Positions 1,264 through 24,000 of a stretch of 64,000 nt of DNA are shown one piece after another. Each line of letters begins with the position of its first letter. Position 1 is the first letter of the stretch. The translations under genes and the position numbers were made by a program. The notes under the pieces were generated by a model. It searched no databases and was not told where the DNA came from. It saw only the letters and a program-made list of their open reading frames with translations. This stretch comes from Mesostigma viride (lineage: Eukaryota > Streptophyta > Mesostigmatophyceae > Mesostigmatales > Mesostigmataceae): positions 2,036,660 to 2,100,659 of the forward strand of contig RPFO01000022.1 in NCBI GenBank assembly GCA_009746045.1, given 5' to 3'.

Positions 1264-4200
1264 TCATCCATCCAAGTGGGGCCTCTTGGCCACATCCCCC
1301 CCTGGCTCCCCATCCTGCTCCCGTTCCCTCTTCACCCCAATCAAGCCCCCCCCATGGTCACCCCCCCCGACCGCCCCTCCGGCACCCCTATCACCATCCC
1401 CGCCGCCCCCTTGGGCGCCCACACTAGCCACACCCTCCCCCCCTGCCCCCCCGGCCCCCTGCTCCCCCGGCTTACTCCCGCCCTCTGCGGCACCCGTGGC
1501 GGCGCCAGCATCAGCGCCCGCAGGAACGGGCGTGCACCGGACGCACAGGTACTCCTTGGAGCTGACGCCGTCGCCCTGGTAGTCGGCAAAGCTGCCCATC
1601 CCGGGCCGTGTGTCGCACTGGAAGTGCACCCACTCCTCGCACTTCTCGCAGCCGATCCAGTCGCCCTCGTCGGTGCGCCCGCACAGGAAGCACGCACCGG
1701 ACTTGACATCCGCCAGGTGCGCGCGCTCATACTCGAGCAGGTACGTCTCGTAGCTGGGGGGGGGGGGGAGGGAAGGGGGAGAAAAGTGGTAGGAGAGGTG
1801 GGGTTCGGAAAGGGGAAAAGCAGGGGGAAGGTATGGGGAAAGAATGGGGAGAGAATGGGGAGGGCAGCGAGAGCGCAGGCCGCAGGGAGAGGGCAGGGGG
1901 AGGAAGGCCGATGGAAGGGGGAGGGGGGTAGAAACAGGGGGTTCAAGACGAAGCAGGTATGGATGGAAAGGAGGGTGGCTACGATGGAACACCCATGAAA
2001 GAAAAACACGGCCAACAGGCACCGCCAACATGCTGAGGTGCAGCCCATCATCGAACAGTGTGGTCCATCCTCATTTCTGGGATGATTGCGAGGTAGTCAT
2101 GGTTGCCCATTCCTCATGGTTGAGTTACTTTGAATAACTGATGGCTGCTCCCTAGACCCTAATTGCAGCAGCTTCCTGCCCATGCCAATAATAACTATTG
2201 CAACCTGTGGGTGCTTTCCCCCTGTTCGTGGTCACTATTCAAACCGCGTCCATGAGGTGACAATACTTATCATAATTACTATTCTCGTGATGAACCAAAA
2301 TTGCTATTCTTGCGACACCCGCACTACACATCGTGTGGCACCCGCACTGATGATGGTGGCTCTTCTACTAACAAAGACAAGCACCCAACCTATCCATGGC
2401 GTCTGTCCTAGCCACAAGGCTTTCCTATTCATGGTGACTATCGTGTTCGTTGTGATATCCTATTCATGGTGACTACCATAGTCAAGGTGGTTCTTCTATT
2501 TCCATGGTAGTTCTTCATGGCAACAGTCACCCACATGCGCTGCAGCATGCGCCGACACTATTCATTGTGGCTCTTCTACCAATAAGGAATAAGCACCCAC
2601 ATGCGCTGCAGCGTGCGCCCCATGTTGTCCAAGTCCTCCTTGGGCGCGCCCTTGGGCCGCTTGCGGTTAAAGTTGCTTAGGGCCGGCTGCACGCGGTTCT
2701 CCCAGTCAATGCCCGCGCCGCCCTTGAAGCCACCCACCTGAAGGGTAGTGGCCATTGGGCAGCCAAGAAAGGTCGTGGGGTAGCAAGAAAGGTTGTGTGT
2801 GGGTCGGGGGAGTATTGAAGCGAACGAAAAGGAAAGACAACAAAATGCAAGAAAGGCCACAATAAGCACTAGCGCCCAAAGCGCACGAAACCGGGAAATG
2901 GAGGGGGCGGTTAGGGAATCCGGGGCGGGGGCAGGGGGGGGGGGGCAAGACTTCGAGACTTCAAACCGAATTAGGGCCAGGGCTTTTTTTTTTTTTTTTA
3001 AGGCTACCAGCATTGCGCATCTCGCACGACAGGCAGTCTGCGGGAAGTTACCCCAAAGATGGCCACAGTCACTACCACGTTAAGTAACAGATGGCTACAT
3101 TAAGTACCGTGTTAAGTTACAGATGGCTACAGTCATGACACCGCGTTAAGTAACAGATGGCTACAGTCATGACCGCGTTAAGGTACAGATGGCTACGGGA
3201 AGGTGCCGATTCGACTACAAACCTTCCGTCGTGCATTCACGGCAAAAGTTAAAGCACTTGTGAGGGTATTCATGCGCAAATGCCACATGGGCCCCACCTC
3301 CTCGCGTGGTTGCACTCACAGGGGGAGTCGCACAACTCCCCACCGACAAAGCATATTGTCATAGGATTACCAGGCGGCAGTAGCAACCGAAGGTAGTCTC
3401 ACGGACAGAGCACGGTCCGCATGCACCCCGATGCCACTGATGAGGCTGTGCTCACGAGAAGGCCCGATGCCACTGATGAGGCTGTGCTCAGGCATGCACC
3501 CCGATGCCACTGATGAGGGTGTGCTCACGAGAAGGTCCGATGCCACTGATGAGGCTGTGCTCAGGCATGCACCCCGATGCCACTGATGAGGGTGTGCTCA
3601 CGAGAAGGCCCGATGCCACTGATGAGGCTGTGCTCAGGCATGCACCCCGATGCCACTGATGAGGCTGTGCTCACGAGAAGGCCCGATGCCACTGATGAGG
3701 CTGTGCTCAGGCATGCCCCGATGCCACTGATGAGGCTGTGCTCACGAGAAGGTCCGATGCCACTGATGAGGCTGTGCTCAGGCATGCACCCCGATGCCAC
3801 TGATGAGGCTGTGCTCACGAGAAGGCCCGATGCCACTGATGAGGCTGTGCTCAGGCATGCACCCCGATGCCACTGATGAGGCTGTGCTCACGAGAAGGCC
3901 CGATGCCACTGATGAGGCTGTGCTCAGGCATGCACCCCAATGCCACTGATGAGGCTGTGCTCACGAGAAGGCCCGATGCCACTGATGAGGCTGTGCTCAG
4001 GCATGCACCCCGATGCCACTGATGAGGCTGTGCTCACGAGAAGGCGCGATGCCACTGATGAGGCTGTGCTCAGGCATGCACCCCGATGCCACTGATGAGG
4101 CTGTGCTCACGAGAAGGCGCGATGCCACTGATGAGGCTGTGCTCACGAGAAGGCCCGATGCCACTGATGAGGCTGTGCTCAGGCATGCACCCCGATGCCA

Positions 4201-7200
4201 CTGATGAGGCTGTGCTCAGGCATGCACCCCGATGCCACTGATGAGGCTGTGCTCACGAGAAGGCGCGATGCTACCATTTCAGGCCATGGGTTCTCGTCTC
4301 CCTTTACCAAGGAGTCAACCAGCGCACAATAGCTTTACAGCTATTGCCCCATTTCACAGATTAATCACCTCACGCAAGGTAGATCCCACATCAACACACA
4401 TCTCACGTGTCGTATCACATCCCACGCTGCGGGGCTAACACCCAACCATGCTCACAGAACCCATATCTCATATCCCTCGACACATTGCGCACGATGCTCA
4501 CCTCTGTCACTTGTGAGTATAATTGTTGTCATTATTATTGCTCGTTGTTGTTATCCCTTGTTTCCCAATGCTCACCTCTGTCACCTCGCGGTACATCCCA
4601 AACAGATCGACCCGGTACCCGTTCAGCTTGGCGTCCGCGGGGAACGACGTCGGCTTGAAACCCTTGCTACTGACCGCCGCCCCCGGCTCCGGCAGCGCCA
4701 CCAGGCTGCCGTCTGCCTTGAGACATCCACTGGCCTTGAGGCTGGCGCCGCACAGCCCCTCGGCCGCACAAAACGATATCAAGTCCACCAGGAACTCCTC
4801 CTCCGTGCAGACAGCTAGCGGCCTGCGCGCACAATTATGCTGGCGCATGTTCGTGCCGTAAACCACCGCGTCCGTCTGAGGGACCAGAAGCACCTCTGCG
4901 GCCGCCCCCTCCGCGCCGAATAGCTCCGAACCGGCGCCCCCGCCCGCCGCCCCCCCGCCGGCCGCCCAATCCCAGGACGCGCCAGCGGTGGCCGGTCGGC
5001 CCCCGCCGGCCCCATCATGGGCCGGGTGGCCACCCGGAGGCTTGTGGTCGTCCATGACACTGCTGCCATCCACGCTGACGTCATCGGCCATGCCCAAGTG
5101 CAGGCTCCCTGCGATCGACTTGGTGCGCCCCGCCTTGCCCCCGCCAGACTTCTTCTTCTCGCCGCCCCCGCCGGCGCCCCCCTTGGCGGGCTTGGGCGGC
5201 GCTGCGGCCTCTGCGGTCGCGCCAGGTAGCGGCGTCTTGCCAGGTGGTGCCGCCGCGGGGGTCTCCTTGGCTGCGGGGGTAGGCGCCTTCTCTGTCATGG
5301 CGACACCCCCGGGTGGCAGAACCATCTCCAACGTGGGGCAGAGGCGCGGGGGTGGGCCTGGGGGCGGCGGCGGCACAGGCAGGGGGGGAGGGGCAGGGGC
5401 TCCTTCGAGTAGACCGGCAGCAGCGGCAGCGGCGGCCTCTGCGGCAGCCGCGGTCGCCTCTGCCTCCGCCATGTAGTCAAAGTTGGCCCACATGCCTGAC
5501 CCTGTCAGGTTCTCGCGCCACACAGGGATGACTTCGAACTCGGTCGGCTCTGCACCATGGCCCCGGTGGAGGAGATGGCATATAGGTAGGAAGGCAGCAA
5601 CGGCTAGGCATTCCTGGTTAGGCATTCATGGTTTCGCGTTGAGATTGACTACAGTTTATGGCAACGACTCCACTAACTGACAAGTAGGTACAGCTGGCGA
5701 TGGCCCCCACCATGAAGAGAAGCCAAGTCCCCACACCGTTGTGCATATGTATGGCGCACCCACTCACTAATCCCTGAGGAACGTAACAAGATTGCGAGTC
5801 TCCCAAGAGCATCCGTGCTGCCCGCACACACTGCTGTCTCCCACCCACAAACACACCAATCACGCTATAACGACACTATAACCTTCCACCCACTTTCAAC
5901 GTCACACCTCCCACGCACTGCCGTCACCCATTTCAACACTGCTCGCCAAAAATCGGTTTTCTCTGAATATAGTTTAATTAACGCATGCGGGAAAGATAAG
6001 GCCGCCATGCCTTGGCCTGGATGTGGAAGGCTGTCTGCGACATGGGCTGACTAATTCGATCTGTACAAAGGGTTTCCTGCTCGCCCGAATTTTCCTTGGA
6101 TGACCCGGTTGTTTATAAGGGTCGGTGGCTATTAATTAGCGGTCCGAGGAAATTAATTGTAGGTTTTATACGACTTCACTTGCAAAGATTCGTGTTTGGT
6201 TGCACCAGCTGAGGTTAGGTGGGGACCTGTAGGGTCGGCTGGTTGCGTACCGAATCTTTGGCTGATTTGGGTTATTTAGTGAGTCGTGATTAATTATTGT
6301 ATAGTGGATTCGGACCGGCCCAAGGGGTCGATGGGCGCGTTTTATGGTTGTCAGTCTTGGGAACCTTGTACAACTACCTGTACGGTTAACGCACTAGCCT
6401 GGGGGTGCGTGGCCACGCTGTTTGTAGTGGCGTTTTCAGCACTGTTCAGGCCGGTGTGTGACGCATGCCGGTGTTAATTAATTTAGGATGATGTCAGCTT
6501 GTGTGTCGGCGGGCCATGCCTTAAGCAAGCTAGGCAGGCAATGATCCGCAATTGTTTCTTTCACAATGGCGGCAATGGCCGCCTGTGCAAAATTGCACAT
6601 TCTAGCGCGGGTTGCATCTGTCTTGTAGCCGAGGCAGATGGTGGCACAACCGCTAAGTTGTTCGACCAAGCATAGTATAGTTGGTCGTGCAACGGAAAGA
6701 AAATTTAAATTTACCCCCATGTCGTTTTCCCCGGCTGCGGGTCTTTTTGACATGGGCGAAGGATGGGGCGCTACTCCGGCGGTTTGGCCAGCTTCGGCGG
6801 AGCTGTTTATAAGTTTCTAAAACAGCTCTAGTGTCACATCGCAGGCTTGCCACCTTGCGATGGTGCGTGGGACGTGACCTGGACTCAAAAGGTCCCGAAC
6901 CAGGTTCCTGTCAGCAACGACTTTTTTTGTCATAAAATATTTTTTGTGGCGGCAGGTCAGTTGTCCAGCTGCCCCTGCCGAGGAGGGGTGGTTGGGGACA
7001 ATAGGAGCCGCGCGAGAGTTGCGCTCCGAAGCTAGAAATTTCCCTATTGCGAGACTCGAGTTGGGGAGGGCGTCTCAGGGAGGCGAGGCTACGCCAGACC
7101 TTTGTCGTTCCTTTTCGTCTCAGCACCTGCTGCGCGGCTCAGTCTATTATGGTGTCGTAAAACCTCTTTCCTTTTTGGACGGTTCCGGAATTGCGAAATG

Positions 7201-10200
7201 CTGGCTCTTTTTGAGGGCTTGCTTTTGGGGTGGTCACCGGCTTGTGTCGCATTGTAACCAGCGGGCCCCTGCGGGGGTTAATATAGCCTAGCGCGGGCTG
7301 AGTCGCCATTTAAGATGTTGCGACACGCTCTTTCGCGCACGGTGGTCATGAGTTTAATCGGCGCAATGGGGTTGGCGCCAGGGGGGGTAATTGGGTGGAG
7401 GCTTCTTGCTTCCGCGTGCGGATTGAGAAACCTTAAGGCCACTGTTAACTGCTGCATTTGTGGCAGGGCTCCACTTATTGTATTCAATCAAATGCTGGTC
7501 TTCTTGGGAGCTGAGTGATCTTAATCGGTTTTCTCTGAATATAGTTTAATTAACGCATGCGGGAAAGATAAGGCCGCCATGCCTTGGCCTGGATGTGGAA
7601 GGCTGTCTGCGACATGGGCTGACTAATTCGATCTGTACAAAGGGTTTCCTGCTCGCCCGAATTTTCCTTGGATGACCCGGTTGTTTATAAGGGTCGGTGG
7701 CTATTAATTAGCGGTCCGAGAAAATTAATTGTAGGTTTTATACGACTTCACTTGCAAAGATTCGTGTTTGGTTGCACCAGCTGAGGTTAGGTGGGGACCT
7801 GTAGGGTCGGCTGGTTGCTTACCGAATCTTTGGCTGATTTGGGTTATTTAGTGAGTCGTGATTAATTATTGTATAGTGGATTCGGACCGGCCCAAGGGGT
7901 CGATGGGCGCGTTTTATGGTTGTCAGTCTTGGGAACCTTGTACAACTACCTGTACGGTTAACGCACTAGCCTGGGGGTGCGTGGCCACGCTGTTTGTAGT
8001 GGCGTTTTCAGCACTGTTCAGGCCGGTGTGTGACGCATGCCGGTGTCAATTAATTTAGGATGATGTCAGCTTGTGTGTCGGCGGGCCATGCCTTAAGCAA
8101 GCTAGGCAGGCAATGATCCGCAATTGTTTCTTTCCCCTCCCTCCCACCCTGGAGGCTTCTTGCTTCCGCGTGCGGATTGAGAAACCTTAAGGCCACTGTT
8201 AACTGCTGCATTTGTGGCAGGGCTCTACTTATTGTATTCAATCAAATGCTGGTCTTCTTGGGAGCTGAGTGATCTTAAAAAAATTACACATACTCTCCCA
8301 ACCCCACAAGAACACAGGTAGATCACCCACACAATTCGGTCGCCCACGCACCAGTCTCCCACCGCATCCAACGCTCATTGCCCAGGCACACAAACATCTC
8401 CCGCCCACATCCATAAATCGGTCGCCCACGCACCAATCTCGGGAACTTTACTCAGGACCTTGGCGGCGGCGGATGCCCCCTCCTCCATCGCCTCAGCTGG
8501 CCACAGGGTCGTCACCCGCTCTGTGTCCTGGGCGCCAAATGCCGCCACCGACATGCCCGCAATGCCCGCGATGCCTGCGGCGGCGAGCCCCCGGTAGCTG
8601 CCATCTGTCGCAAGCTGGTGCAGCACGGTCTGGGCCCACGAAGGCATCGCCGTCACCACCTGTGCGGTAGATGCCGGGGGGAGGGGGAGGGGATAAGACG
8701 GGATAAGACGGGATAAGACGGGATAAGACGGGATAAGACGGGATAAGACGGGATAAGACGGGAATGAAGGGATTAGAAGGAGTAGAATAGTTTAGAAGGG
8801 ATCAGAAGGGATTAGAAGGGATAAGACGGGATTAGAAGGGATAAGACAGGATTAGAAGGGATCAGAAGGGAATGAAGGGATTAAAGGAGTAGAAGAGATT
8901 GGAAGGAGGAGGGAGGAGTGGGTGGGATGAGGGGGGAGTGGGTGGGCACGACGCAGGCCGTGCCACAAGGGGGTGCATGCTAAGGACAAGAGGTATATGT
9001 TATCCAAGAACAGGTATTATAGGATCCAATAACAGGTATGTATGATAGGATCAAAGTACACCGTCCGCATCAGTAGTTTGTTATTAGGGGTCAATTTTTG
9101 CCGTATTTGCATTATGAATAACCCTGGATTGTTTGTTGGGAGCCAGTTAGAGTCCCGGGTTCTATATTATTTAATCAAAACCTTTTGTTTGTTTGTTTGT
9201 CCTGCAGCCGTTCAAGGCACATGGGTACTTATTTAATTAATAAATTTCTTTTGTTTGTTCGGTAGATATCGTACACGCCGTCCCCAATTCGGCCATGGCC
9301 CGGCGGCCCCCCCTCGCCGGCCATAGGCTAGAGTCAGTGGAGGTCAGTGATACCCAGAGCCCACAGGAGTTAATTAATTTAATTTTGTTTGTTTGTTTGT
9401 TTAGTCCAGTCCTCAGCCCCCGGAGTTAATTAATTAATTTTCTTTTGTTTGTTTCCTGGTTTTCAGCCAGAACATTTTACAGAAGCTAATTATTTATATA
9501 AAACTACTAATGCGGACGGTGTACAGGTACTACAGTACTATAGTATCCAAGGGCTAGTAAACATGAATCCAAGAACAAGTATTATAGTATCCAAGAGCTA
9601 TAGTATCCATTCCGTGGGGATGTATCCATGCGACAACCCGCGCCGGCGTGCCAATAATATACTATAGTGACCATGCTCCATGAGACAACCAGCGCAGGCG
9701 TGTAGGTGTACGGCCACACACATTCCTTCCATGCAGGGATATATCAGGTACATCCGTTTCGCCCTTTTTTTCCCCCCCAATAATCAGATGTTGGGCAGAC
9801 GTGCGGCCCCTGGCCACAAGCGAAGCAGCCAAGGGAGTGGGCGCTTCACACCCGCAAGTAGAAGGGAATCATCCCCCCTCAAAGGGGTCGCCATCACCAA
9901 GGCTTGCTAGCACCGTGCACCTACGCCAGGTGCGCATCCATCCGTGAGGAATCCAGCGGACATGCCTGGCGGAACGGTGCCTAGTCGATAGGGCTGGTAC
10001 ATCCGGGTCATGTTGCGACCCGAACACGAACACGAACACCTGGGCAGAGTACCCGAACACGAATACCGAACACATCCGGTGGATTTCCAGGTGACCCGAA
10101 CACGAACACGAACTTGTGCTGTAAGCTTTGAAGGTGACCCGAACCCAAACCCAAACCCAAACAATACCCGAACATTACCCAAACATTACCCGAACATTTA

Positions 10201-13200
10201 CCGAATGCGAACAATTCATCAATATACACTTGCAAGTAGGATACGGACACCATCCATTAGCCAACGAGGACAAGTGAACTGTCATTAGAGAGAGCAACAA
10301 GCTAGCTGTCGTCTCAACTTAGAAACCTAGAGAAAGAAAACCTCAAGGTATAGTATCTTGTTCATTGGCTGGCACCGACTTATCGTATGAGAAGTGAAAG
10401 TTCTGCGGTACGGACTCAAAAAGGCATAGAAATGTTCCGTACCGGGTCAGAGGCGAATATGTTCCCAGGGGTGACCCAAACACGAACACGAACACGTTCT
10501 GTAAGTTCCCAGGCTGACCCGAACCGGAACAGCACATATTCGGCCGAACATTTCAGGCGACCCGAACACCGCACATGTTTGGTATTCGCCCGAGCATGTT
10601 GGTGTTCGGTATGCGGCGGATGTACCAGCCCTACTAATCGACAACACAGGATGACAATGTCCAGCCTGCCAAGCACGCCGCATGAAAGTACACTCCCACA
10701 ACACCACAACTGCCCATGTGGTACACTGACAACGACGCGACCAACCCTTCTGGCACCACAAATGCTCACTCAGTAACAGCTGCCTGCCAGCAACCCAGAG
10801 TGCACGCCTCCAGAGTTTTGTCGAGATTTCGATGCCGGCACTTTGCCTTGCTGGTCTCATGACCGTAACATATAGTTTTTCAATGAGTGCACAAAGTGGC
10901 GCGTCCACCCACCTCCACCACGGGTGCCCCCGCTGCGATGGCTGCGGAGCGGCGTCCCACAAAGGAGACGAGCCGGCAGGCGGGCGCCCATCCGGGCAGT
11001 GGCGGCACGACCTGGGACGGCGAGAAGACGCGCGAGGCGTTGATGACCTGGCGGTGACACGCAGAACAACACAGGGCAGGGCAAGACGAGACAGAGCAGG
11101 AGAGGGAAGGGCAGGGAAGGAGAGGGCAGGGAAAAAGAGGACAGGGCAACACGCCACGACAGGGATGGACCGCAAAAATATCAGCACCCAGCAGGCATGG
11201 CGATTTCCCCCATCAGACTCGCGCGTCACCCTGCCACCCAATGACCCATCCCAGGAGGTGGCGGCGGTGGCATCGGGCCGAGGATCGCGCCCGAGATGTG
11301 TCCTCATTTCAGGAGTTGTGTCAAGCAAGCTTCCAAGATAACTACAATACATCAACATCCCCAATGTGCACTGCCACCCGAACGTCCCCCCTGCATCCTT
11401 CCACCGGGTCGTCTGCCATGGATGAGTCCGTAACCGCGTTTGTACGACGCCAAGTGCCACAGGAGCGGGCCGCTAACACGCATGCTGCAGGCACGGGCAT
11501 ACACCAACTGCGGTTGGTAGAGTCATCCACGCCTTCAGTTGGGCAGATTGAACTGGTGGAGCAAAAACACGCGAATCTAGTCGAAATAGTTTGAACTAAG
11601 GATCTCGAAATCCTTGGCGATCCAATTCAACGCGTCATCCCAACCTACGCAAACCCAACGGGAGGTCGAAATGATACGCAAACCCAACGGGAGGTGGAAA
11701 TGATACGCAAACCCAACGGGAGGTGCAAATGATACGCAAACCCAACGGGAGGTGGAAATGATACGCAAACCCAACGGGAGGTGCAAATGATACGCAAACC
11801 CAACGGGAGGTGCAAATGATACGCAAACCCAACGGGAGGTGCAAATGATACGCAAACCCAACGGGAGGTGGAAATGATACGCAAACCCAACGGGAGGTGG
11901 AAATGATACGCAAACCCAACGGGAGGTGCAAATGATACGCAAACCCAACGGGAGGTGCAAATGATACGCAAACCCAACGGGAGGTGGAAATGATACGCAA
12001 ACCCAACGGGAGGTCGAAATGATACGCAAACCCAACGGGAGGTGGAAATGATACGCAAACCCAACGGGAGGTCGAAATGATACGCAAACCCAACGGGAGG
12101 TGCAAATGATACGCAAACCCAACGGGAGGTGCAAATGATACGCAAACCCAACGGGAGGTGGAAATGATACGCAAACCCAACGGGAGGTGCAAATGATACG
12201 CAAACCCAACGGGAGGTCGAAATGATACGCAAACCCAACGGGAGGTGGAAATGATACGCAAACCCAACGGGAGGTCGAAATGATACGCAAACCCAACGGG
12301 AGGTGGAAATGATACGCAAACCCAACGGGAGGTGGAAATGATACGCAAACCCAACGGGAGGTGCAAATGATACGCAAACCCAACGGGAGGTCGAAATGAT
12401 ACGCAAACCCAACGGGAGGTGGAAATGATACGCAAACCCAACGGGAGGTGGAAATGATACGCAAACCCAACGGGAGGTGCAAATGATACGCAAACCCAAC
12501 GGGAGGTGGAAATGATACGCAAACCCAACGGGAGGTCGAAATGATACGCAAACCCAACGGGAGGTGGAAATGATACGCAAACCCAACGGGAGGTCGAAAT
12601 GATACGCAAACCCAACGGGAGGTGCAAATGATACGCAAACCCAACGGGAGGTGGAAATGATACGCAAACCCAACGGGAGGTCGAAATGATACGCAAACCC
12701 AACGGGAGGTGCAAATGATACGCAAACCCAACGGGAGGTGCAAATGATACGCAAACCCAACGGGAGGTGGAAATGATACGCAAACCCAACGGGAGGTGGA
12801 AATGATACGCAAACCTAACGGGAGGTGGAAATGATACGCAAACCCAACGGGAGGTGCAAATGATACGCAAACCCAACGGGAGGTGGAAATGATACGCAAA
12901 CCCAACGGGAGGTGCAAATGATACGCAAACCCAACGGGAGGTGTAAATGAGTGTATCCTTGAGGCTTCAGGCCATCTTGAAATTGCTTCTTGGTTGTCTT
13001 GCGGGGAGAAGCGGCGAGGGTAAAACACAGGCTGCCCCTCACCAGGCTGGTAAATACACCACCCAGAATCACCCCACCACCCCTCACTCACATAACAAAC
13101 GCACCATGCCGCACCCTCTTCACTGGCACGGTGAACATCACACCAAGAGTGCACGTCCCCCCCCCCCCCCCCCCACACCTGCGTGGAGGCCGCGTCCTTG

Positions 13201-15581
13201 AGCAGGGCGCTGCGGATGACCTGCGCGGTTGCGGCGGGGTCCTTGAGCACGCTGCTACTGCAAGTAGCCGACACTGCCGCGCGGCCGCCGCTGCCCGTGC
13301 GGAAGAGGCAGCGGAAGGATGAGAGACCCTGCAGGGGGTTTGGGGCCACACGTGCGTGCAGGGCAGGGGTAGATAGATGGGTCACATGCTCAAGATGCCA
13401 CGCATGGGACCCACCTAGTGGATGACAAAGGCTTTTGTTCAGGGCAGGGAGCGATGGGCATGTGGGCGAGGGCACGCACATGGTGCTATTACACCCACAA
13501 GAGGCATGTGGGCGAGGGCACGCACATGGTCCTACTCCACCCACAAGAGGCATGTGGGCGAGGGCAAGCACATGGTCCTACTCCACCCACAAGAGGCATG
13601 TGGGCGAGGGCACGCACATGGTCCTACTGCACCCACAAGAGGCATGTGGGCGAGGGCACGCACATGGTCCTACTCCACCCACAAGAGGCATGTGGGCGAG
13701 GGCACGCACATGGTGCTATTACACCCACAAGAGGCATGCGGGCGAGGGCACGCACATGGTCCTACTCCACCCACAAGAGGCATGTGGGCGAGGGCAAGCA
13801 CATGGTCCTACTCCACCCACAAGAGGCATGTGGGCGAGGGCACGCACATGGTCCTACTCCACCCACACGAGGCATGTGGGCGAGGGCACGCACATGGTCC
13901 TACTGCACCCACAAGAGGCATGTGGGCGAGGGCAAGCACATGGTCCTACTCCACCCACAAGAGGCATGTGGGCGAGGGCACGCACATGGTCCTACTCCAC
14001 CGGCAAGAGGCATGTGGGCGAGGGCACGCACATGGTCCTACTCCACCCACAAGAGGCATGTGGGCGAGGGCACGCACATGGTCCTACTCCACCGGCAAGA
14101 GGCATGTGGGCGAGGGCACGCACATGGTCCTACTCCACCGGCAAGAGGCATGTGGGCGAGGGCACGCACATGGTCCTACTCCACCCACAAGAGGCATGTG
14201 GGTGAGGGCACGCACATGGTCCTACTCCACCCACAAGAGGCATGTGGGCGAGGGCAAGCACATGGTCCTACTCCACCGGCAAGAGGCATGTGGGCGAGGG
14301 CACGCACATGGTCCTACTCCACCCACAAGAGGCATGTGGGCGAGGGCACGCACATGGTCCTACTCCACCCACAAGAGGCATGTGGGCGAGGGCACGGTGT
14401 CCTTGTTGGGCCTTGTGTGCCGTCGGCCGCACCTGCAAACAAGGCCTTGTGTGCAGCTTGCTACAACGGCGTTTGCGCGACCTGATGCCTGATGAATACT
14501 TAGGACCTGCTGAAGATGTAGGACCTGCTTTCTCAGAGCGAATCAGCCCCCAGGCGCCACCTTGTGGGTGGTGATGGTCACCGCGCCCACTTGACATGCG
14601 CCGTGCGCTCGAACAGGACATGCAATGAACGGGACATGCAAGACGGTGGATGAGAGTCCGCACGAGTCCGCAAGAGTCCGCACGGCCCTAGCCCGGCGCC
14701 AGTTTGTGGGTGGTCTGCCCACCGCCTTCGTCACTGTGCCCACGCGACATCCGTAACCAGACCGCCCCGCACAGTGATCGCAGGACGAGAGTCCTTCCAT
14801 CAGAGAGCACATCATGCCCCTCGACTCTCACCTTGTTGGTGGTGACTGTCTTGGCCACCGTCCCCACCGCCTGCACCACCACGGTGACCCCCTGCACCTC
14901 GATCTGCAGAAGCGTCTGGAGGCTCGCCGACAGCGCGACAAGTGGCGCCGGGTCGACCAGGAAACGGTGGCCACAGAGCAACACCCGCACCTGAGGGGTT
15001 GAAGCACATGGGGGGGCGCACGGGGGGGCCACATGTGGGTGAGCATGGGGCGGGTGGAGGGGTGGGCGCACCGCGGATGTGGGGAGTGGGCGTGAAGGGC
15101 TTGAGCAGCTTAGGCTGAGTATTTCATGCGTCGGGCGGTTGACCCTCTGCACATCCCACGCAGAGGGACATTGGGCAGGAATGCAGCAGGACCTACTTAG
15201 CAACCCATACAGTGGTACCTGCTGTATATACAAGTAGATACCTCTGCGGTTCTATCAAACTTAACCGAAACGGGCCCACGATTGGGCACACGCAGGTCAA
15301 GGCCTGGGGGGTGGGATACGAACGCATTCTTGCAAACAGGTGAGGGCATGGGCATTACATGCTTGCACACGTTTGCAAAATGGTCAGAGCATGAGCATCG
15401 CCAGTCAGTTGAAGGGAACCAGGTCGGGGCTCTTTTTGGGGAAAATGTTCAAACGAGGCTCTGCGAGAGAGAACCCCAAGCAGGGCGCATCCGCCACAGC
15501 TTCCCCCTGTGCATACACGCCACAGCATAATATTTCCCCTAACCCCCTATCCCTATTCCCCCACCACCCCCACTACCATAC

Positions 15582-15640
<59 letters not shown>

Positions 15641-16913
15641 CCACGACTGGCGAGTCGTCCGTATTACCCCCCATTTGTCTACCCCCCCCCCCCCCAGCTG
15701 TGAAAAACACTTCTCTTCACCTCCACTGGCGCACCTGACACACCAAACTGACCACCACCATCACCCCACCCCCCCCCCACCTCGACGGGCGGCGAGTCAC
15801 TTTAGTCCTGTCACCCGTATCCCCATAACCCCCTTCGAATTCCCCCCCCCCCGCCCTCACCTCCACAAGCGGCGAGTCGAGCGCCACCTTCGCATCCCTC
15901 TCCCGTTTGTGTGCGTCCACCATCATCTGCGTGCGCAAGTAGCCCGGCACGCCGAACACGCACGGCGACTCACCCAGCTGTGCCGCCAGCTGCTGGTCAC
16001 CGCTGGCCGCCGCGCAGGCCAGGTAGGCCTCGTTAGATGCGCACTGGAGTATGTCAGGCACACCCTCATTGATTATGCTGGCGTTGGCGTTCATGCTGGC
16101 ATTGGCGCCGCTGGCGCCGCCACCACTGCCGGCGGCAGCATGACTCCCACTGCCACTCTGTGGGCGCGGCGGCTGTTGACGAGAAGAAGAGGAGGGGGGG
16201 GGGGCCGAGGAGGGTCTGTCGGCGCAATGGTTGGTCATGCTGCCATCCAGGGCGTTGTCTGCGTTGCCAGAATAACTATTGGCGGCGAGCGCTGCGCGCG
16301 CACCCGCGCCGTGCATGCGCACAAACGCGCGCGCCAGATTAAACGCGTCGATGGGGGCCGCGCTCGGCAGCGTGAAAGCGGCGAAGAATGTGCTGGCGAA
16401 CGCGTGCGCCGCCGCCGGCGATGCTGGTGCACGCTTCCAGTAAAGCACAAGGGGGACGCCGCAGTTCTTAAAATAGGCCGCCTCCTCGGCTGCGGGGGCC
16501 GCGTCGATGTACACGACCTCAGGGACGTGGGATGTGCCGTCCAAGAGGCCCCACAGGGCGGGCGCGTTTCCCTCGTGCTTGGAGGGGGACTGGAGCACGA
16601 TCCGGCCCATGCTCTCGGCATGGGCGGAGCCGAGCTGGTCCCGGCCCGCAGGTTTTGGCCCGAGGCCCGAGCAGTAGAGGATGTTGGGGCACCACGCGCG
16701 CACCTGCGCGGCGAGCTGCGCGCGGGTGGGGCTCTGCATCAGCCGAACCTCGGCCTCGTGCGGCAGCGCGTGCCGCAACTCGTTCCACGGGCCGGCAGGG
16801 ATGGGGCTGTCTCCCAACGTAGGGTCGGAGTCTCGGGTCTCGCAACAGATGCTCGCCAGAACTCGCCACCTACGGCGCTTGGGTTTCACCGGAGGACGCG
16901 GCAAGGTCGCCAT
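1264..16913 (-). CDS. ARID and PHD-finger chromatin protein, plant ARID4-like
   Basis: Predicted nuclear DNA- and histone-binding regulator of 1107 aa. Eight exons join in frame with GT-AG borders: 16913-15861, 14990-14832, 13328-13179, 11047-10913, 8659-8434, 5549-4576, 2737-2601 and 1753-1264. An ARID domain (about residues 824-954) is split by two introns; it has the LNGYRVDLFGMYREV and VGGF core and ends YETYLLEYE, with an extra loop of about 30 aa. A complete C4HC3 PHD finger follows (C966, C969, C980, C983, H988, C991, C1015, C1018). The tail has KRERE and AKRPH basic clusters resembling a nuclear localisation signal. The N-terminal 350 residues contain a GVPLVLYWKRAP segment that resembles the N-terminus of plant ARID4 proteins (recalled, not searched). 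Exon 6 is rich in Ala, Pro and Gly. Its introns hold most of the minisatellites at 3-15 kb. Additional small exons cannot be excluded, although every join preserves frame. The start is the first ATG of the 5' exon. Confidence 0.85.
1754..1965 (-). other. Long polypyrimidine tract before the last ARID/PHD exon
   Basis: About 200 nt upstream of the acceptor at 1754 are almost purely C/T on the minus strand (G/A on plus), ending in a run of C directly before AG. This is an exceptionally long pyrimidine tract for the acceptor of the PHD-finger exon. The purine-rich plus strand could also form triplex or quadruplex structure. Confidence 0.6.
2528..2554 (-). repeat. Copy of exon 7 end and splice donor inside intron 7
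   Basis: The last bases of exon 7 and its donor (2594-2620, exon end GCTGCAGCGCAT then GTGGGTG on minus) recur 66 bp downstream in the intron with one mismatch in about 27 nt. The copy carries a usable GTGGGTG donor. Confidence 0.8.
3058..3197. repeat. Short degenerate tandem repeat in intron 6
   Basis: Four to five spaced copies of AGATGGCTACAGTCA with CGCGTTAAGTAAC spacers, unit about 34 bp with indels. It lies in ARID/PHD intron 6, next to the larger minisatellite. Confidence 0.8.
3420..4270. repeat. Two-type 36/37-bp minisatellite in intron 6
   Basis: About 23 units, all starting GATGCCACTGATGAGG. They alternate between one ending CTCACGAGAAGGCCC and one ending CTCAGGCATGCACCCC. The alternation is nearly strict, so the higher-order unit is about 73 bp. 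Two places break the alternation: around 4126-4160 (two 'CACGAGAAGG' units in a row) and 4180-4235 (two 'CAGGCATG' units). It sits in the intron that splits the ARID domain. Open frames across it are by-products of the repeat. Confidence 0.95.
4494..4510 (-). repeat. Copy of exon 6 end and splice donor inside intron 6
   Basis: Seventeen bases spanning the exon 6/intron 6 border (plus 4568-4584; on minus GTGACAGAG then GTGAGCAT) recur exactly 74 bp further into the intron. The copied donor is as strong as the original. Confidence 0.85.
5951..8277. mobile_element. Tandemly duplicated unknown element, second copy deleted
   Basis: Unit 1 is 5951-7522 (about 1.57 kb). Unit 2 starts at 7523 and repeats the first 612 bp (5951-6562 against 7523-8134) with only about three differences noticed. 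It then lacks the unit-1 segment 6563-7395, has a short CCCTCCCTCCC filler, and resumes with the last 127 bp (7396-7522 against 8150-8277). Units meet head to tail at GATCTTA/ATCGG. I see no TG...CA ends and no target duplication, so an LTR element is not supported. A rolling-circle origin is possible but not shown. It lies in ARID/PHD intron 5. No protein in it is recognisable, though short minus-strand frames near 6480-6850 may be decayed coding sequence. Confidence 0.8.
8338..8358 (-). repeat. Copy of exon 5 end and splice donor inside intron 5
   Basis: The exon 5 border (8420-8440; on minus GAGATTG then GTGCGTGGGCGACC) is repeated 82 bp downstream in the intron with one difference in 21 nt. 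Confidence 0.8.
8692..8905. repeat. 10-bp minisatellite in ARID/PHD intron 4
   Basis: GGGATAAGAC repeated almost perfectly to about 8760, then decaying into GGGATTAGAA, GGGATCAGAA and GGGAATGAAG variants. It lies just upstream of the exon 5 acceptor. Confidence 0.92.
9056..9524. mobile_element. MITE-like element with terminal inverted repeats of about 25 bp
   Basis: The left end starts GTACACCGTCCGCATCAGTA. The right end, read in reverse complement from 9524, starts GTACACCGTCCGCATTAGTA, and the match continues into AGTTT. The interior (about 470 bp) has no coding capacity and holds four TTAATTAA-(TTTG)n blocks. If the outermost GTAC is excluded, a TA target duplication is possible. It lies in ARID/PHD intron 4. 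Confidence 0.65.
10010..10600. repeat. Degenerate GAACAC-type repeat cluster
   Basis: Blocks of ACCCGAACACGAACACGAAC and CCCAAACCCAAAC, separated by a longer repeated segment (GTGACCCGAACAC...CTTGTGCTGTAAG or CGTTCTGTAAG), around 10015-10200 and 10480-10600. It looks like an old minisatellite inside ARID/PHD intron 4. The CCCAAAC run is not a telomere: it is short, internal and merges into the CCCGAACA type. Confidence 0.7.
11641..12949. repeat. 29-bp minisatellite with three unit variants, about 45 copies
   Basis: The unit ATGATACGCAAACCCAACGG plus GAGGTNNAA is essentially invariant except at two adjacent bases, which occur as GG, GC or CG. Because 29 is not a multiple of 3 and the unit lacks minus-strand stops, all three minus frames stay open for hundreds of codons; those frames are artefacts. 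It lies in ARID/PHD intron 3. Confidence 0.97.
13452..14394. repeat. 46-bp minisatellite, about 20 copies, in intron 2
   Basis: The unit starts GAGGCATGTGGGCGAGGGCA and ends CTACTCCACCCACAA. Variants include CACGCACATG/AAGCACATG, CTACTCCACCCACAA/CTACTCCACCGGCAA and a GTGCTATTACACCC form. Long plus-strand frames follow from the repeat, not from a gene. Confidence 0.96.
14555..14742 (-). repeat. Two degenerate copies of the exon 2 end and donor in intron 2
   Basis: The end of exon 2 (on minus GTGGGGACGGTGGCC...ACCACCAACAAG then GTGAGAG, 14832-14871) recurs as GTGGGCACAGTGACG...ACCACCCACAAA near 14695-14742 and GTGGGCGCGGTGACC...ACCACCCACAAG-GTGGCG near 14556-14600. The second keeps a GT at the donor position. 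Confidence 0.7.
15583..15638. repeat. (CA)n microsatellite
   Basis: About 27 CA dinucleotides in ARID/PHD intron 1, running directly into a copy of the exon 1 donor (GTGTGTG on the minus strand). Confidence 0.97.
15637..15798 (-). repeat. Three copies of the exon 1 end and splice donor in intron 1
   Basis: The exon 1 border (15859-15879; on minus GACTCGCCGCTTGTGGAG then GTGAGG) has echoes at 15779-15798 (GACTCGCCGCCCGTCGAG then GTGGGG), 15718-15730 (CGCCAGTGGAG then GTG) and 15637-15657 (GACTCGCCAGTCGTGGAG then GTGTGT). Each is followed by GT. Confidence 0.75.
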
Positions 16914-18050: not shown

Positions 18051-21000
18051 ATGACGAGCAGGGCGACGAAGGATGACGCGGCAAAGGGCATGGCGTTGGA
18101 TAAGCTCGTCGCATATGATACCACCTCGCGGCGGCAAGAATACCTCTTCCCGTGTCCCGGCTTCCTGGAGCGTTACTTCCTTCCCATGATGAACGATACC
18201 CGCGACTTGATCATGGTGCACCTCCTCTTCAACATCACCATGATATCCGTCCCGTTTGCCATAACTCTGTACATTCTACCCAACGTCTCGCATCTGCTGG
18301 GGCTGGCCTACTTCGTCGCTCATTACGTCATCTTTCTGGAGCGGTTTATCTTGCTGCTTCATTATTCCGAGCACAGAAAGGTGAGGGACCCTCCAGCAAA
18401 GTACACGGCTGCGCTAGTTTGCCCTGTCGTTTTGTCTACAAAATATAAATTCGATAGTCATGGGTCTGTCATTTGCATTAAGCCGGCAGCCGCGGCGGTG
18501 TCTACAAGTTCACTGCTGTCAATGTAATAAATTAAAACAAAATATATCAGCAACCAGGAGTATGCTCTCCCACAGGAATTCCACGAGAAACGCAATCAAT
18601 AGCTTGACAAGAATCTGTCGACATCAGCAGTACATAGTCACATCCTCACACAGGGTCTTCCATCCAGTAACGAGCTTTGGCCTACAAGTAAGAGTAACAA
18701 ACATGCGCGCACCCCACCCGACGCCTCATCCACACACCAACGTGTACGCCCACCCGACCCCCCACCCTCGACAGTTCTACAAATTGCATAACGCTGAACA
18801 CATTTAGATCTTGACCACTCAATCAGCAACCATGGATGCTGCTCCTGTGTCTTCCATGCTTGCATCCCCCCTGCTCTCCCCCCCCCCCCTCCCCTCCTGG
18901 CAGATCTTCAAGCCCACCTCCCTGGTCGGCCGCCTTCTGAACGGCTACTCGCCGTACCTGCTCAGCCCTCTGTTTGGCGTGCCCAGCGGCGTCTACCGCG
19001 TCCACCACGTGATCATGCACCACATCGTGAGTTGATGCCATTAGTCAGCACAAGTGTGATAACATCGTGAGTTGATGCCATTAGTCAGCACAAGTGTGAT
19101 AACATCGTGAGTTGATGCCATTAGTCAGCACAAGTGTGATAACATCGTGAGTTGATGCCATTAGTCAGCACAAGTGTGATAACATCGTGAGTTGATGCCA
19201 TTAGTCAGCACAAGTGTGATAACATCGTGAGTTGATGCCATTAGTCAGCACAAGTGTGATAACATCGTGAGTTGATGCCATTAGTCAGCACAAGTGTGGT
19301 CACATTGTGTGTTGATGCCATAAATAGCTACTTGTGAGTCAACATTATTTGCCACGTTCGTGCACCACATCGTGAGACCATGCCATCTATAATGAGCCGT
19401 GAGCCAGCATCAGCTGCCGCTATCATCTCTCTCCACACCATGAGTCAGGGATAGCGTGGTCATGCACCACAGTGTGAGACGATGGCCACAGTACAAGCAC
19501 CACAAGCGCCACTTAGTTGTTAACGCGCCACAAGGAGAGTCATCATCGACTTGGTAACACACCACTTTGTGAATGGCCGCCTGCTGCATTGGCATGAACA
19601 CCGGATGCGCAACACGGCGAGCCCGTGCTAGCTTCAGATGTGCCACAAATCCTTGGGCGGTACCTTGTGGCATCAGCAAGCAACGCCCGGATAAGCCGTG
19701 GCCACCAGTTGTGACATAGTGAACCCGATGCGCAACCCAGTTGTGACATAGTGAACCCGATGCGCAACCCAGTTGTGGCAGAGTGAACCCGATGCGCAGC
19801 CCAGTTGTGGCAGAGTGAAGGTTATCAGCAACCGCCGCTGCTGCCTGTTTGCCCTTCAGCACTAGGCGTCGATGTAGCACGACCATATGAGCTCAGTTGT
19901 GCATGGGTGAGGAGTACGGCTGGTCGAGGAATGGTCAATTGCAGGTAGTTGCGTAGGGTCATGCCACTGGCAGCCGATTGTAAGTTCCAGGGTCTACCCA
20001 GGTGTAACAATGGTATCAATGAGACCACCAACTAGCATGGTATTAATGAGACCACCAACTAGCATGGTATCAATGAGACCACCAACTAGCATGGTATCAA
20101 TGAGACCACCAACTAGCATGGTATCAATGAGACCACCAACTAGCATGGTACCAATGAGACCACCAACTAGCATGGTATCAATGAGACCACCAACTAGCAT
20201 GGTATCAATGAGACCACCAACTAGCATGGTATCAATGAGACCACCAACTATCGTGGTCTGGTGCTTTTCCTTTGCCCTTGTCTGGTTTCCCCCACGCCCA
20301 TCCATGTGATCTGTGGGATAAGGGTTGCTTTGCATCCCGTACCGCGTTAAATAGGGTTGCTTTGCATCCCGTACCGCGTTAAATAGGGTTGCTTTGCATC
20401 CCGTACCGCGTTAAATAGGGTTGCTTTGCATCCCGTACCGCGTTAAATAGGGTTGCTTTGCATCCCGTACCGCGTTAAATAGGGTTGCTTTGCATCCCGT
20501 ACCGCGTTAAATAGGGTTGCTTTGCATCCCGTACCGCGTTAAATAGGGTTGCTTTGCATCCCGTACCGCGTTAAATAGGGTTGCTTTTCACCCCGTACTG
20601 CATGGAAGGTTTCTTTTCATCCCACAACGCGCTCTCTCTTACAAAAGCCTGCGGCTCTTCGATAAGCTTGAATGGCAAAGCTCAAGCCGCCATGGGCCCC
20701 GCTGCGGGCGACAGGGGGTGTTCACGGGCACAGGGTCTATCTCGCAGGTGGCAGGAACTTGTAAACTGTACTGCTGTCGTGCCGCTCTTTTTGGTTTCTT
20801 GCGCCGGCAGGTAACAGTGGCCGCCGCAACTCATGCACCCACGACCCTGCGCTTACTCCCAGGTGTGCCTGTGTCTTCTGCTAACAGGGCATTTGCATGG
20901 TGTGTGTGTGTGTGTGCGTGTGTGTGTCAGTGTGTGTGCTCATGTGCATGTGCTCATGTGCATGTTCTTGTGTGAGTGCGCGCCTGTGGTTGCCACCCGC

Positions 21001-24000
21001 CACCCCCGTACCCTCCTCTCGCACCCTATCCCCCCTGCCATGTCGTATCCGCCCTCCACCAGGAAAACAACGAGAAAAGCTACGACCTGTCGTCCACGGA
21101 GCCGTATCAGCGCGACAACTTGCTGCACTTCCTCCTGTGAGTAGACAGATGCCAGCACCGCACTTGATCATTTGCTGCCTTGTGTGTGATAAATGTGGCC
21201 ACTCCCTCTTGTGAGTGACAAATGCCAGCACGGACTCATGTATGAGGCGTGAGGCGTGGATGCCAGCAATATTTGATGTTTGAGTGCCCCACGCCAGCAC
21301 TAGCATGTGTGAGGCGTGCATGCCAGCAATATTTGATGTTTGAGTGCCCCAGGCCAGCACTAGCATGTGTGAGGCGTGCATGCCAGCAATATTTGATGTT
21401 TGAGTGCCCCACGACAGCACTAGCATGTGTGAGGCGTGGATGCCAGAAATATTTGATGTTTGAGCGCCCCATGTGAGTACTGGCATGCAGCAGTTGGGCA
21501 GCTCCTCCACTGGCAATGCCCAGGCAGGCATCCCACGCGGGAATGATCCCCCCGTATGTGTGCGTACTTCCCATATTCAGTTATGGGGGCTATGAACCGT
21601 GAGGGATATTATAAGGCCACACTAGGGTCACATACCAACTTAGTATAGTCTAATTTTTATTTTTTGGTCGGCATGGTCCAATTCTTGCTGGCAATACATT
21701 TCTTGTTCGCAATACACGAAGGTACGCACGCCGAAGGGCTCCCAGGGAGACCCCATCCCCTCTCATCCACCCAGCTACGCTCGGCCATCCTCCTGCCTGT
21801 GGCAATCAATTTCGGCGCATGCCATGTTCGGGCGCTCGTCGGCTTGTGCAGGCCAGGCCCCCGGCTCGGTGACGCTGCCGTGGTTGTGGCGGTTGACCAC
21901 CTTGTCTGTGTACACAATGCCGGCTGTCTTGGTTCTTGTTGGGTCTCCATACCCGGCCCCTGCAGGTACCTGGCCCGTTACGTGTTTGCTATCTGGGTGG
22001 AACTGCCCTGGTACACGATTCGTCGCCGGCGCTTGGGCGTTCTGCTGCAGGCTGCCATCCCCCTCATCAGCTACTGGTGAGTTGTGTTGGTATCAATGTT
22101 GGACCACCGTTGGTATCAATGTTGGTATCAACCGTTGGTATCCATGTTGGACCACCGTTGGTATCAACGTTGGTATCAACCATTGGTATCAATGTTGGAC
22201 CACCGGTTGCGTCGGGGCTGGCATGCTCAGCAGGCAGCAGCGTACATGCTAGTCGGACGGTAACTTAAAGGTGACATTTGTTTCTCATAGGGGCAGCCTG
22301 ATAAGAACGCAGTGTTCAATGCCTGTGTAGTTGATTGTATTTGACCAGGAGGGCTTGGCAGATAGCAAATGGGTGTCTTTGTTCTCGAAAGTTTCAAACA
22401 TAGTATTATGGTCATTGGTCAAGGGCTGGCAAGCCCCTATAAGCCCATATGCCCTTCGTTTTCACGGACCCAGAATGCTCTTCTATCTGCGCTGTGTATC
22501 ATCCATGACAACCCCCCCTTTTGCGGTGACTGTGTGCTGCGCATCCAGTGCCCCTGATCCGGACAAAAAGTCAGCTTTTGCCTACACTCCCACGTGATAA
22601 CCATGTGCCTTTGGCTGTATGCCCTGGTGCCTCCATGAAGATAGCCAACGACATGCCCCCCCCCTTACCAACGATCAAATAATAGCGGAAAGAATATAAT
22701 TGAAACAACTGTAATATAATAATGGCAAAGAGTATATTTGACACATCTCTGTGTGCAAATAAGCATATTTTACATCATGGTGTGCATGCCATACCCATCT
22801 GCGTCTTCCGAAACCATCCCCAATCTTACCCCACACCCCACCCCACCCCGCCATGTCCTACTCCAACTGTCATCCCCACCCCCTCCATCGCTACTCTCGG
22901 CACCAGGGCAGCGGTGTACGCGCTCTACCAGTTCTCCCCAGTTGCCACCACGTGGGTGAGTTCCGTGAGCGTCCTTCATCTTCCTTTTCTTTTTTCTTTG
23001 TGGGTGGGTTTGTGGGTGGGTCGGTGGGTTGGTGGGTTGGTGGGTTGGTGGGTTGGTGGGTTGGTGGGTTGGTGGGTTGGTGGGTTGGTGGGTTGGTGGG
23101 TTGGTGGGTTGGTGGGTTGGTGGGTTGGTGGGTGGGTGGGTGGGTGGGTCGGTGGGTGGGTGGGTGGGTGGGTGGGTGGGTGGGTGGGTGGGTGGGTGGG
23201 TGGGTGGGTGGGTGGGTGGGTGGGTGGGTGGGTGGGTGGGTGGTGGGTGGGTGGGTGGGTGGGTGGGTGGGTGGGTGGGTGGGTGGGGGGCGTGGGTGGG
23301 TGGGTGGGCTGGTGGGCTGGTGGGCTGGTGGGCTGGTGGGCTGGTGGGCTGGTGGGCTGGTGGGCTGGTGGGCTGGTGGGCTGGTGGGCTGGTGGGCTGG
23401 TGGGCTGGTGGGCTGGTGGGCTGGTGGGCTGGTGGGCTGGTGGGCTGGTGGGCTGGTGGGCTGGTGGGCTGGTGGGTCGGTGGGTCGGTGGGTCGGTGGG
23501 TCGGTGGGTCGGTGGGTCGGTGGGTGGGTGGGTGGGTGGGTGGGTGGGTCGGTGGGACGGTGGGTCGGTGGGTCGGTGGGTCGGTGGGTCGGTGGGTCGG
23601 TGGGTCGGTGGGTCGGTGGGTCGGTGGGTCGGTGGGTCGGTGGGTCGGTGGGTGGGTGGGTCGGTGGGTGGGTGGGTCGGTGGGTCGGTGGGTCTTTGGG
23701 TCGGTGGGTCGGTGGGTGGGTGGGTGGGGGGTGGGGTGGGGGTGGGGTGGGGGGGGGGGGGGCGGTGGGCCGGTGGGCCGTTGGGATGGTGGGCCGGTGG
23801 GCCGGTGGGCCGGTGGGCTGGTGGGCCGGTGGGCCGGTGGGCGGGTGGGCCGGTGGGCCGGTGGGCCGGTGGGCCGGTGGGCCGGTGGGCTGGTGGGCCG
23901 GTGGGCCGGTGGGCTCGTGGGCCGGTGGGCTCGTGGGCTCGTGGGCTCGTGGGCTCGTGGGCTCGTGGGCTCGTGGGCTCGTGGGCTCGTGGGCTCGTGG

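Follow-up and report, generated by a model that had tools for sequence, protein, structure and literature searches.

Two neighbouring genes on opposite strands of one Mesostigma viride contig carry, near the start of many of their introns, copies of the exon end and 5' splice site from which those introns begin, and the question raised is whether such copying is peculiar to the locus or reflects a recurring process at exon–intron borders. The whole stretch analysed, referred to here as the window, comprises 64,000 nt (GCA_009746045.1, contig RPFO01000022.1, positions 2,036,660–2,100,659 of the forward strand), and the searches beyond it covered the 440 Mb genome in this one assembly. Border copies were scored by a swap test, a donor being called positive when it lay above 99% of the swaps. 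By this test, seven of the ten donors in the window are positive, namely A1, A2, A5, A6, and A7 of the minus-strand ARID/PHD gene and D2 and D3 of the plus-strand desaturase gene. These labels were matched through coordinates to the intron numbers of an earlier sequence-only reading, which had claimed copies in exactly these seven introns. The donors at 10912, 18381, and 22077 show no border copy by the swap test; at 22077 there is an array of the intron head only.

The minus-strand gene is recognized by Pfam matches to ARID (1e-6), which spans the exon join at donor 4575, and to PHD (2e-5), which spans the join at donor 2600. The first exon has no Pfam match, and the assignment of donors 15860 and 14831 to the same gene is therefore putative. 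The source border of A6 (4568..4584, minus strand, as for all borders of this gene; donor 4575) lies within the region coding for the ARID domain, and its copy at 4494..4510 is identical over 17/17 positions without gaps, to +8, and extends to +24 when gaps are allowed. This pair had been quoted before and was found again unchanged, as was the 20/21 pair formed by 8338–8358 and 8420–8440, which belongs to the A5 border (8412..8440, donor 8433; copy 8330..8358, 26/29). For A7 (2594..2619, donor 2600), the repeat at 2528..2553 is present and ends at +7, its identity being 25/26 rather than the "about 26/27" given earlier; the head of this intron also has its own copy at +213. The A2 border (14829..14850, donor 14831; swap test and alignment) has a copy at 14558..14579 that matches in 19/22 positions without gaps and in 46/56 over a longer, gapped stretch. 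For A1, the exon tail and intron head around donor 15860 (15841..15878; positive by the swap test) align with 15761..15798 (31/38, spacing 80) and with 15636..15657 (19/22, spacing 222). The interval 15637–15798, listed previously as having three copies, holds these two divergent copies, and a further, weaker one is discernible in it by eye.

The desaturase match of the plus-strand gene (9.4e-6, 26.0 bits) falls under the Pfam cut-off of 29.7. Its intron 2 (D2) contains a 40-bp tandem array of 7.5 copies (19022..19321, plus strand), the first unit of which takes in the last 5 nt of the exon together with the donor at 19027. Older, divergent copies of the same border align at 19358..19386 (spacing 345) and 19455..19484 (spacing 447). 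In intron 3 (D3), the source border (21126..21164, donor 21137) is repeated at 21200..21236, with 33/37 identities in a gapped alignment. The spacings in the window run from 40 nt, in the array, to 447 nt. The exon tail without the GT is positive for 3/10 donors of the window. Control segments of the window gave positives in 0/10 cases for exon positions −70..−30, 0/10 for the reverse complement, and 0/8 for acceptors. Intron-only segments, however, are often copied here too (6/10 at +1..40, 3/10 at +41..80, 4/10 at +81..120, and 3/10 at +121..160), such that the specificity for the border is weak inside the window alone.

Outside the window, the analysis covered 38 introns from five other genes or gene families on several contigs. 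Donor border copies are found in 15 of them, as compared to 0.4 expected, while acceptor borders are positive in 2 of 34 (L040 and S11d; Fisher p = 0.0008 versus donors). The enrichment over an acceptor control implied by the sequence-only reading is present, and its proposal of a recurring local process at exon–intron borders is supported for donors, not for borders in general. In the same sample, the exon tail without the GT is positive in 10/38 introns, exon positions −70..−30 in 2/38, the reverse complement in 2/38, downstream exon heads in 3/34, intron-only segments in 1 to 6 of 37–38, and a reversed-intron decoy in 0/38. Along 22 kinesin introns, copying is most frequent for the final 24 nucleotides of the exon (8/22) and stays at 0–1/22 across nine segments starting at +0 to +48. 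A further signal for segments starting at +120 to +150 (3–6/22) we attribute to arrays and to internal repeats like those of L039 and L047. These results confirm that the copying of exon ends by introns is real and extends beyond the window. That the copies reproduce the borders at the starts of introns, and hardly those at their ends, suggests that DNA is copied locally by a process centred on the donor boundary.

The kinesin introns derive from 37 that could be paired, of which the 20 shortest were fetched together with, by their donor side only, 3 of the remaining 17; one (L033) was excluded, as its reading frame continues without a stop. Seven introns were retained from L011, four each from L023 and L004, and one from L014, short or doubtful predictions (e.g., L011 5424 and L023 8861) being omitted, and L019, L025, L007, and L017 were left out of the counts. 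The borders of L023 and of L014, which has no Pfam match and whose product we presume to be PA2G4-like, come mostly from a home-made gene finder. This program produced many false introns in apparent transposon genes, and it was mainly genes with homology support that were retained from its output; after filtering, 9 of 40 gene-finder introns reached p ≤ 0.02. An annotation-free test, based on donor hexamers within local repeats over 332 kb, was dominated by a few arrays and was uninformative.

An alternative that we rate as only somewhat less probable than the explanation favoured below is that local duplication is uniform along these introns and only its visibility is unequal. The exon source being frozen, border copies would remain recognizable for longer, in theory for twice the visible lifetime, and copies of an acceptor upstream of it would be purged, since they would capture splicing. 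The introns here are indeed rich in arrays, interior segments are copied as well (up to 9/32 over all 32 introns, window included, versus 13/32 at the border peak, in addition to the 6/10 at +1..40 noted above), and some copies extend into the intron when gaps are allowed. Exon heads, however, are just as frozen as exon tails and are rarely positive, and interior donor-like sites have a copy in only 4/32 introns (p = 0.015 versus donors). With five array introns excluded (U4a, U4b, L039, P23a, and L050, a choice made post hoc with the results already known), the latter comparison becomes 1/28 versus 14/33 (p = 6e-4); without any filtering, copies accompany 33 of 142 such sites, U4a alone contributing 30. 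When all local duplications were set against block-shuffled sequence, this null proved too permissive (125 expected versus 152 seen). Array members were instead removed, leaving 67 of the 152 duplications, and borders and interiors were compared at higher thresholds. At a score of at least 15 and an identity of at least 0.78, the borders hold 8 events in 1.5 kb and the interiors 11, a ratio of 10.4, and other thresholds give ratios from 7.1 to 20. Under uniform duplication with decay of the copy alone, the border should show double the interior rate, which predicts 1.55 events there against the 8 seen (p = 2e-4). The border excess survives this factor of two at four thresholds (p = 2e-4, 2e-5, 7e-4, and 9e-6, with 7–10 border events each).

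The form of the copies also has to be accounted for. They contain the last 5–70 nt of the exon and 3 to about 30 nt of the intron and are sited within the first few hundred intron nucleotides. Most are short and direct, with 21–287 nt of unrelated spacer between source and copy. True tandem arrays beginning inside the exon occur in two introns, D2 and U4a, while the other listed introns hold one to three copies, mostly with an unrelated spacer. Slippage, one of the two processes offered by the sequence-only reading, suits these two arrays; elsewhere the unrelated spacer that precedes the copies favours template switching, the other of the two, or repair with filler DNA. Among 14 young copies, ungapped identity is 0.95 at +1..4 but only 0.38 at +9..12, remains at 0.38–0.43 over +9..16, and is near chance past +16 and upstream of −20. 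This drop beyond +8, which again argues against uniform duplication, indicates that most young copies are not whole tandem units. Gapped alignments nevertheless run further into the intron not only in A6 but also in L044 and L042 (to +25) and in D3 (to +28), and, together with the intron-head copy of A7, they suggest that part of the copied material may be old tandem units. The best non-array copies stop no more than 1 nt short of the border in 19/20 cases (S11e ends at −9), in a search that admitted near-border segments only.

The ungapped right ends of the copies cluster, 12/20 lying at +3..+9, while the left ends are spread between −7 and −50. Many ungapped copies end near +8, about as far as pairing with U1 extends, and GT is kept in 15 of 19 non-array copies; selection might accordingly retain the extra donors as reserve 5' splice sites or as decoys. 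The GT is lost, however, in L041 (to GC), L037, L042, and P23d, and, with all non-array copies taken together, conservation is the same for the first four bases of the intron as for the final ten of the exon (0.79 versus 0.79). The multiplication of usable donors suggested by the sequence-only reading is not established by these figures. There is no evident reason why selection would preserve the exon tail, and we regard this explanation as improbable. The same clustered right and variable left ends, the direct orientation of the copies, and the near absence of signal at acceptors would fit an RNA-linked route, in which a cDNA- or RNA-templated repair event begins near +8 at the 5' splice site, proceeds into the exon for varying lengths, and then enters the nearby gene. 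The clustering is weaker with gapped alignments, of which only 5/14 and 1/4 (border-hit introns in two alignment sets) end at +3..+9. Nicks could yield identical ends, the arrays and the copies reaching +22 or +28 require an additional step, and a direct trace of RNA is absent, so that such a route appears very unlikely. Still less credible is the insertion of mobile elements at donors with the repeats as target-site duplications, even though the border–spacer–border form resembles such a product. Two spacers searched against the 440 Mb, with very common words skipped, match only themselves, which makes mobile elements unlikely, and the spacers of eight introns appear unrelated by eye.

The best explanation, to which we assign a probability of about 0.43, is a recurrent duplication, at the DNA level, of the 5' exon–intron border. 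Breaks or paired nicks at the border would be filled in and their ends joined with the inclusion of filler DNA, or else a short template switch would occur during repair or replication, each event leaving a border–unrelated spacer–border arrangement. That fill-in at breaks bearing 3' overhangs can produce duplications is well established (PMC8355091). Some duplicated borders may later expand into true tandem arrays. As splicing would still use the first donor, the one adjoining the intact exon, the outer copy would be harmless and decay neutrally. The focus on the donor side might arise from the G-rich sense strand of the 5' half of the intron, which could form R-loops or G-quadruplexes, the 3' half being C-rich (G 0.37 and C 0.22 at +7..30; C 0.49 and G 0.18 in the last 30 nt). 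G-richness as a predictor of copies is unsupported by the comparison of introns with and without them (GGG runs, p = 0.57; skew, p = 0.39). The asymmetry is probably deepened by the purging of acceptor copies that lie upstream and could capture splicing. A more far-reaching version, which we consider rather unlikely, is that mutation in this lineage is concentrated at 5' splice sites as hot spots, where a donor-recognizing process, with ends near +8 and a variable start in the exon, copies the exon end downstream, introns growing from their 5' end while old copies drift and decay.

The closest known counterpart is the exon stuttering described for chicken dot chromosomes by Hron et al. (2026, PMC12954441), in birds and with a remark on gerbils. 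There, 3.4% of the annotated dot-chromosome introns contain exon parts of 20–187 bp (median 36) in a median of 4 imperfect tandem copies, the source lying no more than 1 base from the border in >90% of cases, at either the donor or the acceptor edge. Polymorphism of intron length between individuals is a further mark of exon stuttering. As in that description, a lateral part of the exon with its splice site is imperfectly copied into the adjacent intron while the exon stays intact (15/38 introns outside and 7/10 inside the window), the source touches the border (15/38 versus 2/38 for exon −70..−30), and the introns are repeat-rich and the genes GC-rich. The present cases differ from those reported there in belonging to the green lineage, in reaching 15/38 introns on several contigs by a more sensitive test, and in consisting mostly of one to three short copies with an unrelated spacer, the donor edge being clear and the acceptor edge nearly silent (2/34 outside, 0/8 in the window). 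In Daphnia neointrons, direct repeats of 4–17 bp are ascribed to the repair of staggered double-strand breaks (Li et al. 2014, PMC4202315), with sequence inserted between the repeats as a proposed route of intron lengthening. Direct repeats flanking an unrelated insert are likewise found here, gapped alignments extending some of them; in the Daphnia account, however, exon-end repeats of 4–12 bp lie at the opposite end of the new intron, whereas in the present introns it is the donor border itself that recurs, at a downstream site in the same intron. Intron gain by tandem genomic duplication (PMC4974935) also duplicates exonic sequence with splice signals, but as described there it creates a new intron, while the introns studied here hold extra copies with putative donors; repeats spanning donor and acceptor are not supported by our sample (exon heads positive in 3/34, acceptor borders in 2/34). 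The pol alpha-primase fill-in of PMC8355091 similarly yields short duplications, at breaks with 3' overhangs, the abstract of that paper making no mention of splice sites.

What is new here is the green lineage, the proportion of about 40% of the sampled introns, and the donor-side polarity, and these findings suggest that what was described in 2026 from bird dot chromosomes is not peculiar to birds. The findings address the open question of how introns lengthen and why their two ends behave differently, copies of the own donor border in about two-fifths of the sampled introns providing a natural record of the process. The genome would also allow one to ask whether DNA damage and repair are directed by splice sites or by adjoining R-loops, and the putative spare donors may feed alternative splicing.

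A conveyor-belt relation between the age of a copy and its distance was considered, the cases being too few for a claim: the nearest copy is the most similar one in L040, L044, L048, A6, and the D2 array, and not in A1 and A2. As to a templated origin of the spacers, four of five have no nearby match beyond those of shuffled sequences, while the A7 spacer has a 13-nt direct match in its own intron, against a shuffled maximum of 12.

The recurrences that the sequence-only reading had described, in which the last exon nucleotides and the GT donor reappear within their own intron, were re-found at the quoted positions in the window; for the pair at 2528 and 2594 the repeat holds, but 25/26 rather than "about 26/27" identical positions were counted. 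In our swap test, the 30 last exon and 10 first intron bases are aligned locally to their own intron, the null for the 10 window donors being the windows of the remaining donors. Seven of the ten lie above 99% of swaps, and these are exactly the seven introns named from the sequence. None of 8 window acceptors passes the same test. Intron-only windows of the window introns also pass often (+1..40 in 6/10, +n counting intron bases after the donor), and the window by itself is thus no proof of a border effect. ARID and PHD domains of the minus-strand gene span the exon joins at donors 4575 and 2600, while the plus-strand gene has a fatty-acid desaturase match slightly under the Pfam cut-off.

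Since the window introns had been picked by the finding, an independent set was built from the same 439.9-Mb eukaryotic assembly (2243 contigs; the window is C777:2036660-2100659). A kinesin-motor search gave 129 exon matches with profile coordinates, 37 consecutive pairs and, from these, the 22 introns used, and 16 further introns came from random stretches (starch synthase 7, TAZ/PHD protein 4, subtilase 4, PA2G4-like gene 1), making 38 introns from five gene types. Exon borders outside the kinesin and starch synthase genes rely on a home-made gene finder. The best solved relative of the starch synthase, on the randomly drawn stretch L011, is starch synthase I 4hln (602.8 bits), which we take to be the barley enzyme; from this gene and 33 matches to the chlorophyll-binding protein family, the source genome is read as that of a green-lineage alga.

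In 15/38 introns of this set, a copy of the donor border outscores 99% of swaps (binomial 1e-20 at 1%), and 10/38 pass with the exon tail alone as query. The copies in introns L031 (24/26), L044 (29/33), L052, L048 (two copies, of stretches 75 and 48 nt) and subtilase intron U4a are plain by eye. The controls pass far less often: 2/34 acceptor borders, 3/34 heads of downstream exons, 2/38 windows at exon -70..-30, 2/38 reverse-complement queries and 0/38 with reversed introns as decoy targets. Intron windows pass in 4/38 at +1..40 (three of these being border matches as well), 1/38 at +41..80, 3/38 at +81..120 and 6/37 at +121..160. The kinesin profile peaks over the last 24 exon bases (8/22), falls to 0-1/22 for windows starting at +0 to +48 and rises again at +120 to +150 (3-6/22), where the L039 array and other internal repeats sit. 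Interior donor-like GT sites have a copy in 33/142 cases, 30 of them in subtilase intron U4a; per intron this is 4/32 against 15/38 true donors (p 0.015) and, with five array introns excluded (1/96 sites), 1/28 against 14/33 (p 6e-4). Kinesin intron L040 is among the very few acceptor-side cases: at +221..249 it repeats the start of its downstream exon in degenerate form.

The anatomy was examined in 22 introns with border matches (15 independent, 7 window). True tandem arrays beginning within the exon are found in two, desaturase intron D2 and U4a; in U4a a 47-nt spaced unit, which reaches 22-31 nt back into its exon, repeats ~10 times through about +500. In the remaining introns, the stretch copied without gaps is short. 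For 14 young copies, ungapped identity climbs from 0.31 at -30..-21 through 0.54 at -20..-11 to 0.84 at -10..-1, reaches 0.95 at +1..4, and drops to 0.66 at +5..8, 0.38 at +9..12, 0.43 at +13..16 and then about 0.3. The best ungapped copy lies 47-320 nt from its source and is separated from it by 21-287 nt of unmatched sequence; two spacers that were searched gave self-matches only. Ungapped right ends fall at +3..+9 in 12/20, a post hoc count with a query that favours near-border pieces. Gapped right ends do so in 5/14 introns of one alignment set and 1/4 of another, because A6, L044, L042, D3 and others extend to +15 or beyond; a sharp edge at +8 is therefore suggested, not established. Copies of 92-100% identity (L031, L041, A6, A7, P23b) are not followed by an equally good repeat of the intron head just past the donor, whereas whole recent tandem units would be; the A7 head has a separate copy at +213. 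GT is kept in 15/19 non-array copies, but over all copies donor and exon-tail bases are conserved alike (0.79 each), which fits neutral decay.

A staggered break repaired with filler would leave border, spacer and border in direct orientation, and so would a short template switch. Break fill-in is a known origin of small duplications (PMC8355091), and such repeats have been proposed as a lengthening route for Daphnia introns (PMC4202315). The 38 sampled introns show strong strand asymmetry, the sense strand being G-rich in the 5' half and C-rich in the 3' half, with G at 0.37 right after donors and C at 0.49 ahead of acceptors. This polarity could favour R-loops at donors, but copy-bearing and copy-free introns are not separated by their skew (p 0.39). 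The donor/acceptor asymmetry is probably increased by purging of acceptor copies. Alternatively, duplications may arise uniformly across introns and stay visible longer where an exon is the source; by argument rather than computation, if the exon source is frozen, its copy can be recognised for twice the time of an intron-intron pair. Once array members are taken out, duplications exceed the interior rate at the border 7- to 20-fold per kb of source, and after this factor of two the excess still gives p 2e-4, 2e-5, 7e-4 and 9e-6 at four thresholds; with only 7-10 border events, however, uniform duplication keeps real weight.

The same kind of pattern is described as "exon stuttering" in 236 introns of chicken dot-chromosome genes (PMC12954441), exon edges and splice sites being copied through the adjoining intron from a source at most 1 base from the border in over 90%. 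Full-text search for the term gave this paper alone, and no green-algal or splice-site-duplication report was found, which for open-licence texts and strict terms is weak evidence of absence. Compared with chicken, what is new here is the green lineage, the much larger fraction of introns with copies (by a more sensitive test and in a small sample), the donor-side polarity, and copies that are mostly short and single.

The window also holds a TCCAT pentanucleotide array (66 copies, 26-357), large 29-bp x45 (11646-12950) and 46-bp x20 (13457-14396) arrays inside the minus-strand gene region, a large 8-bp array (23000-24119), and a GTTGGTATCAAC array (22086-22205) that begins 9 nt past the fourth desaturase donor and does not include the exon. 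In the intron that follows donor 8433 of the ARID gene, two long direct repeats ~1 kb apart (about 5955-6600 and 7546-8260), very similar by eye, resemble an inserted element's terminal repeats. One kinesin gene was found twice, at C2:6330541-6334132 and C622:17695-21288; the two occurrences share their E-values and space their exons almost identically. The pair is probably a haplotig or a recent duplicate and could allow allele comparison.
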